The notes under the pieces were generated by a model. That model made no database searches and was not told where the DNA came from. It was given only the letters and a program-made list of their open reading frames with translations. Both the position numbers and the translations under genes were made by a program. This document shows, one piece after another, positions 17,588 through 21,210 of a stretch of DNA of 64,000 nt; the stretch's first letter is position 1, and each line of letters opens with the position of its first letter. The DNA is from Sphingobacteriales bacterium (GTDB lineage: Bacteria; Bacteroidota; Bacteroidia; Sphingobacteriales; Sphingobacteriaceae), in NCBI GenBank assembly GCA_025353765.1, contig JANXOD010000035.1:124001-188000 (forward strand), read 5' to 3'.

Positions 17588-18031
17588 ATGTATAAATTCT
17601 TATTAAGCCTGCATTCGGGCTTTCGTTATATTGTGCTGGTACTTACAGTTTTGGCTTTAGTACAATCATTGGTAGGATTATTCGGCAAGAAAAAATATAC
17701 GGAGACTAATCGCAAAATTAATCTCTTTACTCTGATATCCGCCCATACACAATTGCTGATTGGCTTGGTATTGTATTTTTATAGTCCATTTGTAAACTAT
17801 GGTAATATGGGCGCAGCCATGAAAGATACTACAACCCGTTACTGGACAGTAGAACATTTAGCCATGATGATTTTTGCAATCATATTAATCACAATAGGTC
17901 ATTCAAGGTCTAAAAAAGCAATAGATGCACTAAACAAACACAGAGCTATTGCTTTATATTATGGCTTAGCTATTCTTATAATTCTGCTTGCTGTCTACCA
18001 GAGTAGCCGTCCGATATTGGGAATGTCATAA
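17588..18031 (+). CDS. Small four-helix membrane protein (cytochrome b-like)
   Basis: A 147-residue integral membrane protein with four hydrophobic helices and conserved-looking His residues near membrane edges (LLSLHSGFRYIV, LISAHTQLLIG, VEHLAMMIF, TIGHSRSKKA). Such proteins are often annotated cytochrome b-like in Bacteroidota because the histidines could hold haem, but there is no direct evidence of that here. It lies just upstream of the trp leader on the same strand; 52 bp separate its stop from the leader ATG, and a separate promoter is likely for trp. Confidence 0.7.
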   Translation: MYKFLLSLHSGFRYIVLVLTVLALVQSLVGLFGKKKYTETNRKINLFTLISAHTQLLIGLVLYFYSPFVNYGNMGAAMKDTTTRYWTVEHLAMMIFAIILITIGHSRSKKAIDALNKHRAIALYYGLAILIILLAVYQSSRPILGMS

Positions 18032-18048
18032 ATAAAATAATGGAAAAT

Positions 18049-18077
18049 TTGAAATATCATTTTTCTTTATATTTTTG
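18049..18077 (+). promoter_or_regulatory. Candidate promoter of the trp leader
   Basis: TTG at 18049-18051 and TATTTTTG at 18070-18077 are 18 bp apart, close to the -33/-7 consensus. If used, the mRNA would begin only a few bases before the leader-peptide ATG, a nearly leaderless arrangement. Confidence 0.5.
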
Positions 18078-18083
18078 TTGAAG

Positions 18084-18161
18084 ATGATTAGAGAAATAAA
18101 TATTCTTAACTATTGGTGGCCTGTAATAACAACAGCGCCCGGGACAGGTATTTTGAAATAA
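18084..18161 (+). CDS. trpL: trp operon leader peptide with tandem Trp codons
   Basis: A 25-codon open frame, ATG to TAA, encoding a peptide with two consecutive Trp codons at positions 11-12 (context LNYWWPVITTAPG). It sits 193 bp before trpE and 30 bp before an intrinsic terminator. This is the classical layout of ribosome-mediated attenuation: when charged tRNA-Trp is scarce the ribosome stalls at the Trp pair and the terminator should not form. Known biology: trp attenuation leaders have been predicted in Bacteroidota (the Bacteroid-trp RNA motif). Inference: this peptide is the sensor for this trp operon. Too short for normal gene callers. Confidence 0.82.
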   Translation: MIREINILNYWWPVITTAPGTGILK

Positions 18162-18191
18162 ACTAATCAACCAAAACCTAAACAAATGTAA

Positions 18192-18221
18192 AACCCGACG
18201 CTCAACCCGTTGGGTTTTTTT
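18192..18221 (+). terminator. trp attenuator (terminator hairpin)
   Basis: Stem aacccgacg / cgttgggtt (9 bp with one G-T wobble), loop ctcaacc, followed by a run of T. It lies between the leader peptide and trpE. Upstream cct/agg and cccggg segments (18120-18148) lie within reach and could form the competing pairing, but I could not define the antiterminator with certainty. Confidence 0.82.
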
Positions 18222-18354
18222 GTGGCCGAGCCTCAACTCTATTTTAATATAAAATAGGAACATCTTTTATGAATCATCATGAGCCGTATCTTACAAATAA
18301 GAATAAATAAATTTCACTTATGACTTCATTATCGCTTAATAACAATTTGTTCTA

Positions 18355-19764
18355 ATGAAAAACTATAAATTATATACATCACATAAAAAAATATTGGCGG
18401 ACACTACCACTCCGGTTAGCATATATCTGCGTTTACGCGATGCTTTCCCTAACAGTATTCTGCTGGAAAGCTCAGATTATCATAATCGGGAAAATAGTTT
18501 GAGCTACGTTTGCTGTGATCCGATTGCAGGAATTATGCTAAAAGAGGATAAGTTGGAAGAGTATTTTCCGGATGGCAAACTAAACAACTATTCTTTACAG
18601 GATGTGGATTTAAAAAAACAAGTTTCAGAATTTAGAAACCAGTTTGAATCAGTATGTGATACCAATTTTAAATTTATATCAAACGGCCTCTTTGGTTACT
18701 TTGCTTATGAAACTATTCAATATTTTGAAGATATAAAACTAAACAATCCATCCGCCGAAGGGCGTAATATACCCTTAATGCAGTATCATGTTTACCGATA
18801 TATTATTGCAATTGATCATTTTAAAAACGAATTATATCTTCTTGAACATCGTATAGACAAGAATGCTCCAGATGGATTGGAAAAAATTCAATACCTGATG
18901 CAGAATAAAAGCTTCCCGGAATATGCGTTTAGTCAGAATGGAGAAGAGAAATCTAATTTTACTAATGACGAATTTTTAAGCATTATTGAAGGAGTAAAAA
19001 AGCATATTTATCGTGGTGATGTCTTTCAAATGGTATCTTCAAGAGCATTTTCAAAACCTTTTTTAGGAGATGAGTTTAATGTATACCGGGCATTGCGCTC
19101 TATCAATCCATCGCCTTATCTATTCTATTTCGACTATGGTGATTTCAAGCTTTTTGGTTCATCGCCGGAAGCACAACTTACTATAAAAAATAATGAAGCA
19201 ACTATTTACCCCATTGCCGGAACGTTTAAAAGAACAGGCAATGATGTATTAGATGCCGAATTAGCAGAAAATTTGAAGAAGGATACCAAAGAGAATGCAG
19301 AGCATGTGATGCTGGTTGACTTGGCAAGAAATGATTTAAGCCGGCACTGTGAACAGGTTGAGGTGAAATCTTTTAAGGAAGTACAATATTATTCGCATCT
19401 TATTCACCTAGTATCTAAAGTTGTCGGTCAACTGCAAACTGATGTTAACCCCTTTGATGTGGTTGGCGATACTTACCCAGCAGGTACATTGAGCGGAGCG
19501 CCTAAATATATGGCTCTTCAATTAATAGATAAGTTTGAGAATCAAAAACGAGGATTTTATAGTGGTGCTATAGGCTTTATGGGGTTTAATGGGGATTTCA
19601 ACCATGCTATTATGATCCGCTCTTTCTTAAGTCAAAATAACGTCTTGCATTACCAGGCTGGTGCAGGTATAGTAGCAGATTCAGATCCGCAAAGTGAACT
19701 AGACGAGGTGAATAATAAAATAATGGCTTTACGAAAAGCTATTGAAATGGCAACGAAGATTTAA
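18355..19764 (+). CDS. trpE: Anthranilate synthase component I
   Basis: A 469-residue enzyme that with TrpG converts chorismate and glutamine to anthranilate, the first step of tryptophan synthesis. The N-terminal LLES motif at 36-39 is the tryptophan feedback site, which separates TrpE from PabB. The chorismate-binding half shows GSSPEAQL, PIAGTFKRTG, LVDLARNDL and GTLSGAPK. Length is normal. It is preceded by a transcribed leader with attenuator and followed by trpG after an 88-bp repeat-containing gap. Confidence 0.97.
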   Translation: MKNYKLYTSHKKILADTTTPVSIYLRLRDAFPNSILLESSDYHNRENSLSYVCCDPIAGIMLKEDKLEEYFPDGKLNNYSLQDVDLKKQVSEFRNQFESVCDTNFKFISNGLFGYFAYETIQYFEDIKLNNPSAEGRNIPLMQYHVYRYIIAIDHFKNELYLLEHRIDKNAPDGLEKIQYLMQNKSFPEYAFSQNGEEKSNFTNDEFLSIIEGVKKHIYRGDVFQMVSSRAFSKPFLGDEFNVYRALRSINPSPYLFYFDYGDFKLFGSSPEAQLTIKNNEATIYPIAGTFKRTGNDVLDAELAENLKKDTKENAEHVMLVDLARNDLSRHCEQVEVKSFKEVQYYSHLIHLVSKVVGQLQTDVNPFDVVGDTYPAGTLSGAPKYMALQLIDKFENQKRGFYSGAIGFMGFNGDFNHAIMIRSFLSQNNVLHYQAGAGIVADSDPQSELDEVNNKIMALRKAIEMATKI

Positions 19765-19852: not shown

Positions 19853-20422
19853 ATGGAAACTATTTTAGTTATAGATAATTACGATTCTTTCACATTTAAT
19901 TTAGTCCATTTGTTGAATGAAACGGGGCACAAAGCTACGGTTTGGCGTAATGATAAATTTGCTTTAGCAGATATAAATACTTTTGATAAGATTCTGTTAT
20001 CGCCAGGCCCTGGAATACCATCTGAAGCAGGTTTACTGCTTGATATAATACGTAAGTATGCTCCCACAAAAAGTATTTTAGGCATTTGCTTAGGGATGCA
20101 GGCCATTGCAGAAGTATTTGGTGCCCAATTATATAATTTATCACGCCCAGTGCATGGAAGAGCTACCTCAATTGAAGTGTTGGATAAAACTGAAAATCTG
20201 TTTGCAAATTGTCCAGTGGAGTTTAAAGTTGGACGCTATCATTCATGGGCGGTTTCCAATGAGGATTTGCCTGATAAACTAAAAATTACTGCTCAGGATG
20301 CCGATGGCGTAATTATGGCATTAAGTCATGTAAGCCTTAATGTAAAAGGCGTTCAGTTTCATCCAGAATCTGTACTGACTGAGCATGGCAAATTGCTGAT
20401 ATCAAACTGGCTAAAGAGTTAA
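19853..20422 (+). CDS. trpG: Anthranilate synthase component II (glutamine amidotransferase)
   Basis: A 189-residue class I glutaminase that feeds ammonia to TrpE. The triad is complete: Cys79 in GICLGMQA, His170 and Glu172 in GVQFHPES. The oxyanion loop LLSPGPGIP is also present. Because no other amidotransferase pairing is visible it might also serve PabB. It lies two bases before trpC. Confidence 0.95.
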   Translation: METILVIDNYDSFTFNLVHLLNETGHKATVWRNDKFALADINTFDKILLSPGPGIPSEAGLLLDIIRKYAPTKSILGICLGMQAIAEVFGAQLYNLSRPVHGRATSIEVLDKTENLFANCPVEFKVGRYHSWAVSNEDLPDKLKITAQDADGVIMALSHVSLNVKGVQFHPESVLTEHGKLLISNWLKS

Positions 20423-20424
20423 CA

Positions 20425-21210
20425 ATGAATATACTGGATAAAATTGTCGCAAAAAAGAAAGAAGAGGTTGCGCTTTCAAAACTCAAATTTCCTTTTATAC
20501 GATTGGAAGAAAGTGAATTATTTTTTCGTGAGTGCTATTCTTTCCGTGATTTTATACTTGATCCTAAACGTACCGGAATTATCGCAGAATTTAAGCGGCA
20601 ATCGCCATCTAAAGGAGTCATCAACAATAAAGTAAATGTTGCAGAAGTAACTCATAACTATGCAGAAGCCGGGGCTTCTGCTTTATCTGTTCTAACGGAT
20701 ACAAGCTTTTTTGGCGGATACAAACGAGATCTGGTAGAAGTCCGTAAAGCCAATAGCATTCCTGTATTGCGTAAAGATTTTGTACTTGATGAATATCAGG
20801 TAATTGAAGCTAAAGCGCTGGGTGCAGATATTATTTTACTAATTGCTTCAATATTAAATCCGCAAGAGATTGAAAAATTAGTAAAACGTGCTAAAGATTT
20901 AGGCATGAATGTGCTTTTAGAGGTTCATAATAAAGAAGAACTTTCCCGAAGTTTGTGTAACGATTTAGATGCAGTTGGTATAAATAATAGAAACCTATCC
21001 GATTTTTCTGTCTCACTTAATCACTCCTATAGTTTAGTTGATGATATTCCGGACCAATTTTTAAAAGTTTCAGAAAGTGGAATTAGTGATCCTGAGACTA
21101 TAAAAGCATTAAAAAAAGTAGGATTTAATGGGTTTTTAGTAGGTGAAAATTTTATGAAAGAAAGTGATCCGGGAAAAGCCTTTCAGAAATTTATTGAGCT
21201 ATTAAAATAG
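20425..21210 (+). CDS. trpC: Indole-3-glycerol phosphate synthase
   Basis: A 261-residue TIM barrel making indole-3-glycerol phosphate from CdRP. Seen: N-terminal MNILDKIVAKKKEEVA, IIAEFKRQSPSKG with Lys57, VLRKDFVLDEYQV, LLEVHNKEEL, GINNRNL and ESGI. It begins 2 bp after trpG. The enzyme for the step in between (trpD) is not in the operon and neither are trpF, trpB and trpA, so the pathway is split over the genome. Confidence 0.97.
   Translation: MNILDKIVAKKKEEVALSKLKFPFIRLEESELFFRECYSFRDFILDPKRTGIIAEFKRQSPSKGVINNKVNVAEVTHNYAEAGASALSVLTDTSFFGGYKRDLVEVRKANSIPVLRKDFVLDEYQVIEAKALGADIILLIASILNPQEIEKLVKRAKDLGMNVLLEVHNKEELSRSLCNDLDAVGINNRNLSDFSVSLNHSYSLVDDIPDQFLKVSESGISDPETIKALKKVGFNGFLVGENFMKESDPGKAFQKFIELLK

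Follow-up and report, generated by a model that had tools for sequence, protein, structure and literature searches.

The classical tryptophan attenuator, Escherichia coli trpL, combines tandem Trp codons with pairings between regions 1:2, 2:3 and 3:4 and an intrinsic terminator before trpE, on a leader mRNA whose 5′UTR carries a Shine-Dalgarno (SD) sequence. The locus described here differs from it in lacking an SD, in being near-leaderless and in its sequences. In the same phylum and class as our locus, the described counterpart is the Bacteroid-trp motif (Rfam RF01692; Weinberg et al. 2010, PMC2864571), whose members have in common with it a Trp-rich leader of about 20 codons, typically with Trp-Trp-Trp, before trp genes. 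Leader mRNAs that start at or next to the leader AUG are known from Sinorhizobium meliloti trpL/rnTrpL, whose leader RNA or peptide, once released, has been reported to act in trans (PMC7298713), and the attenuator leader of the amino acid genes ilvBNC in Corynebacterium glutamicum is leaderless (PMC11857589). Both belong to other phyla and are unrelated in sequence, and because of them a near-leaderless attenuator is not a new principle. In Flavobacterium psychrophilum, from the same phylum and a different family, a map of transcription start sites gave clues to attenuation before amino acid operons, none of those named in the main text being for tryptophan (PMC9723704). A search of the open literature returned no study devoted to the trp leaders of Sphingobacteriaceae; earlier predictions in Bacteroidota may exist.

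The window, by which we mean the whole 64,000-nt stretch of DNA analysed, comes from a genome of 2.8 Mb; among named bacteria, its nearest relatives are Daejeonella (Sphingobacteriaceae). It very probably contains a ribosome-mediated transcription attenuator of a trpEGC operon, arranged in the order leader ORF, intrinsic terminator, trpE-trpG-trpC:

17588-18031: upstream ORF, ending about 160 nt before the terminator
18084-18161, + strand: leader peptide ORF of 25 codons, MIREINILNYWWPVITTAPGTGILK, from sequence and translation
18114-18119, + strand: tandem Trp (control) codons, TGGTGG
18190-18221, + strand: intrinsic terminator, AAAACCCGACG - CTCAACC - CGTTGGGTTTT plus a T run
18355-19764, + strand: trpE, anthranilate synthase component I, the regulated gene
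19853-20422, + strand: trpG, anthranilate synthase component II
20425-21210, + strand: trpC, indole-3-glycerol phosphate synthase

An earlier note, made from the letters alone, had proposed a 25-residue frame with adjacent Trp codons, a terminator after it and then trpE, in the arrangement of ribosome-mediated attenuation. Sequence and translation confirm the frame, a short ORF with clustered Trp codons ahead of a tryptophan biosynthetic gene. The terminator, which lies between this leader and the first structural gene, begins 28 nt past the leader stop codon with a perfect 11-bp stem (18190-18200 with 18208-18218), and its T run extends to 18221. The spacer from terminator to trpE measures 136 nt, compared with about 40-75 nt in most relatives of the genus, and contains an inverted repeat, CTATTTTA-ATA-TAAAATAG, at 18239-18257 that may represent an operator or have arisen by chance. 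The upstream ORF matches neither Pfam nor NCBIfam.

A micro-ORF with two adjacent Trp codons is not rare by chance, being present in 6 of the 666 ATG ORFs of 10-50 codons in the window, and we dropped it as evidence on its own because it occurs elsewhere in the window by chance. That the locus is non-random follows from its position, from the terminator and above all from conservation in relatives. We examined 145 non-identical stretches upstream of trpE, nearly all from Sphingobacteriaceae, a few sharing one genome or coming from nearly identical ones; many are closely related, so the counts are not independent. A Trp-Trp or Trp-x-Trp leader precedes trpE in 143 of them, and a terminator lies downstream of the leader in 140 of the 143; a Trp-rich leader ORF is present before trpE in 20 of 20 genomes of the genus. 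Two stretches without a detected terminator, L128 and L154, have the same leader as L078 and L062, which differ in the gene-start setting and do show one; we attribute the absence to a misplaced trpE start. The search of relatives that the earlier note had recommended thus returned Trp-Trp leaders, terminators and a covarying antiterminator kept across genus and family, all of which support the attenuation arrangement.

A covariance model built from 17 genus sequences (R1) scores 114 bits at the window locus, where the next match in the window reaches 29 bits, and in the window's genome this locus is its sole match at E ≤ 0.1. Elsewhere in the family it finds trpE leaders too: in a scan of 41 genomes, the strong matches (E < 1e-3) adjoin trpE wherever trpE positions are comparable. 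As judged by these comparisons of sequence, the trpE attenuator is common to the whole family Sphingobacteriaceae, for which a covariance model that finds it is now available.

These results bear on a simpler account, in which the terminator acts as a simple constitutive attenuator or ends the transcript of the 17588-18031 gene and the Trp-Trp ORF is incidental. The count of such micro-ORFs given above is compatible with it, as is an upstream gene that ends just about 160 nt from the terminator. We nevertheless consider it very improbable, given the family-wide Trp-rich leader with its promoter-ATG spacing and covarying antiterminator, the lineage-consensus promoter that lies past the upstream gene and ahead of the leader, and a similarly built promoter-leader-terminator unit before an unlinked trpD, each of which is described below.

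The link that the earlier note drew to the Bacteroid-trp motif stands in part. The locus is predicted to work like that motif and has its Trp-rich leader before trp genes in Bacteroidota, but running the Rfam model, as the note had suggested, left the locus unmatched. RF01692, with a membership cut-off of 49 bits, gives no match between 17500 and 18800 at E values up to 10, none in the whole genome and none at the gathering threshold within the window; the locus therefore falls outside RF01692. No curated Rfam family reaches its own threshold in the window, and no riboswitch family matches. The best Rfam match, Phe_leader, was rejected at 28 bits against a gathering threshold of 55. Over the corresponding loci of 14 relatives, Rfam at E up to 0.5 returned just two sub-threshold sRNA matches. 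The mechanism is classical: this is a known kind of switch in a version absent from RNA databases, and it extends Trp attenuation to a large Bacteroidota family without a matching Rfam model.

The position of the promoter sets these leaders apart from the RF01692 members, in which the distance from promoter box to ATG is mostly about 16-20 nt, compared with 5-10 nt here. In the window, the two predicted promoter elements are separated by an 18-nt spacer, with 6 nt between box and ATG:

18048-18051, + strand: predicted −33 element of a Bacteroidota sigma-A promoter, TTTG
18070-18077, + strand: predicted −7 element, TATTTTTG, consensus TAnnTTTG

In 128 of 143 leaders the start codon is preceded, at a distance of 4-11 nt, by an exact TAnnTTTG box, where dinucleotide shuffles give an expectation of 1.9; the leader of one of the 20 genus genomes (L020) lacks it. 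Of the 128 boxed leaders, 103 have TTTG 17-22 nt before the box, 96 of them at exactly 18 nt. In Flavobacterium johnsoniae the G of the promoter box is at −5 (PMC6847099), and in F. psychrophilum the box covers −12 to −5 (PMC9723704). Together with the 6-nt gap, this mapped offset implies a +1 at about 18082 in the window and a predicted 5′UTR of 2 nt, a near-leaderless leader mRNA. The family's box-ATG spacings, usually 5-10 nt, would likewise yield 5′UTRs of 1-6 nt, and the box position places the predicted start 0-6 nt before the AUG. The spacing thus agrees family-wide with the earlier proposal that the mRNA starts nearly at the leader ATG. No SD-like sequence is present upstream of the leader ORF in the window or in any of the 143 family leaders.

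Such leaders are uncommon for the phylum, most of whose mRNAs have longer 5′ leaders: 5′UTRs under 10 nt account for 3.7% in Bacteroides thetaiotaomicron, 87% of F. johnsoniae 5′UTRs exceed 10 nt (PMC6847099), and leaderless mRNAs make up about 5.5% overall in F. psychrophilum (PMC9723704). In a phylum without SD sequences and with few very short 5′UTRs, the leader mRNAs of this family appear to be near-leaderless. A near-leaderless trp leader would offer a clean test of how translation starts fast enough for attenuation without an SD.

In the class Bacteroidia (L187-L260), Trp-Trp or Trp-Trp-Trp leaders precede trpE in most of the loci sampled; outside the family, their promoter-ATG spacing is either short (about 4-10 nt) or longer (mostly 12-23 nt). 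Searches with loose patterns, aimed at His leaders and at further Trp-Trp leaders after a TTTG box, returned too many chance matches and were set aside. The window's own fold also contains a helix, UGAUUAG / CUAAUCA, that pairs 18085-18091 with 18163-18169 and covers the leader start. Start-codon sequestration through this helix, on the C. glutamicum ilvBNC model, was rejected for its weak family-wide support (a median of 37% of foreign 5′ ends pair equally well; z −0.6).

The pairing elements of the leader RNA surround and follow the Trp codons:

18098-18103, + strand: region 1, AAATAT, 5′ of the Trp codons, pairing with GTATTT at 18148-18153 in the RNAalifold consensus
18118-18139, + strand: predicted local protector hairpin, GGCCTGT / ACAG-c-GCC, from the minimum-free-energy fold of the window
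18134-18143, + strand: antiterminator strand 2, AGCG CC CGGG, within the leader ORF
18146-18155, + strand: 5′ strand of the inner antiterminator helix, AGGU..UUUG, whose GTATTT part competes with region 1
18172-18179, + strand: 3′ strand of the inner antiterminator helix, CAAAACCT (CAAAACCU)
18194-18202, + strand: antiterminator strand 3, CCCG-a-CGCT, overlapping the terminator 5′ arm

Downstream of the Trp codons, the antiterminator and the terminator are mutually exclusive: the window leader adopts the terminator fold, and the antiterminator fold once its 5′ part is removed. In the latter, strand 2 (18134-18143) is paired with strand 3 (18194-18202), and 18146-18155 with 18172-18179. In the minimum-free-energy fold, the protector hairpin overlaps the second Trp codon and hides strand 2. 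The region 1:2 helix, which flanks the Trp codons and is conserved, has 8 bp in relatives (CAAAATAC/GTATTTTG) and is reduced to AAATAT/GTATTT in the window. We infer that it plays the classical 1:2 role, a stalled ribosome covering region 1 and freeing strand 2; the stall geometry is taken from usual ribosome footprints.

Among the 17 genus sequences, the inner antiterminator helix has 95.6% of its cells paired. Some observations count against the attenuator reading: the outer helix is imperfect within the genus (69% of cells paired), and the genus terminator helix is too conserved for two-sided covariation to be visible. Across the family, the antiterminator duplex is stronger than in dinucleotide shuffles (mean z −2.5), and in 94 of 140 duplexes at most 5 of 100 shuffles, which ignore kinship, are equally good. 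Strand 2 also pairs preferentially with the terminator arm of its own leader: the median share of foreign arms that pair equally well is 15%, where 50% is expected. Compensatory changes between genera link the terminator arm to strand 2 (CCCGG/CCGG, CCCGA/TCGG and CCCGAT/ATCGG).

Also among the counter-observations, the frame after the Trp codons varies between relatives through indels of 1-4 nt and is unconserved; constraint seems to act on the Trp codons and the RNA structure alone, in which case such variation would be expected. The RNA around AGGTATTTTG and CAAAACCT is strongly conserved whatever the coding frame, and in L017 and L019 the antiterminator strand sits past the leader stop codon, as might be expected if a tryptophan- or protein-binding RNA (a riboswitch or TRAP-like system) controlled the terminator without leader translation and the peptide were a by-product. 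Against this stand tandem Trp codons that are near-invariant and close behind the promoter while other residues and lengths vary, and the lack of a riboswitch family match; we assign such a mechanism only a minimal probability. Other leader-peptide systems use Rho-dependent termination or translational coupling in place of an intrinsic terminator, and the 136 nt between terminator and trpE in the window speak for such a route. A strong U-tailed hairpin with a competing antiterminator in 140 of 143 leaders makes this route extremely unlikely too, as does the distance from leader stop codon to trpE, which at about 190 nt is long for coupling.

Under the favoured attenuator reading, transcription would start 0-3 nt ahead of the leader AUG. 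The near-leaderless 5′ end would then be loaded with a ribosome that trails RNA polymerase. When charged tRNA-Trp is plentiful, the ribosome would pass UGG-UGG, reach the stop codon and cover strand 2 (18134-18155), allowing the 11-bp terminator to form and transcription to end near 18221. When charged tRNA-Trp is scarce, the ribosome would stall on the Trp codons and cover region 1 and the protector hairpin; the freed strand 2 would then pair with CAAAACCT and with CCCG-CGCT, using up the terminator 5′ arm, so that trpEGC is transcribed. Comparison of the sequences shows the leader, Trp codons, promoter position, terminator and covarying antiterminator; the start site, translation of the leader and Trp-dependent switching are predicted from them.

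The trpD gene of the window's genome is unlinked to trpEGC, lying on another contig (G000:C13), and is followed by ORFs that resemble trpF and trpB (named by eye). It has a leader of its own:

G000:C13, about 121589-121750: trpD leader locus (L270), peptide MRKNNVNTAWWCQTITRLAIRKSM

A promoter-like CATATTTG lies 12 nt before the ATG of this leader, and its terminator, AAGGGTTGC-CACAA-GCAGCCCTT, is followed by T's and then trpD. Of the 12 genus genomes inspected, 11 have a second Trp-rich leader and a AAGGGTTGCC-type terminator ahead of trpD, and in most of them a CATATTTG or CATCTTTG box precedes the ATG by 6-12 nt. From their sequences, trpEGC and trpD, the two parts of the split pathway, each appear to have an attenuator of their own, so that two switches which read the same tRNA could be compared in a natural setting.

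These features could be joined into one broader reading, which we offer tentatively and regard as somewhat doubtful. Near-leaderless trp attenuators would form an RNA family not yet on record, with two copies in each genome, one at trpEGC and one at the trpD unit of the split pathway. A ribosome that loads on the AUG as the 5′ end emerges would couple to RNA polymerase with no SD step, and selection for a shorter time to stalling would account for the near-absence of a 5′UTR across the family.

RF01692 itself has only marginal matches in Sphingobacteriaceae, and the four inspected all lie at trpD, none at trpE. In two other genera of the family, Trp-Trp-Trp leaders precede trpD units (L261-L264) and score 46-48 bits, marginally below the cut-off of 49, which indicates that RF01692 is narrower than the real spread of such leaders.
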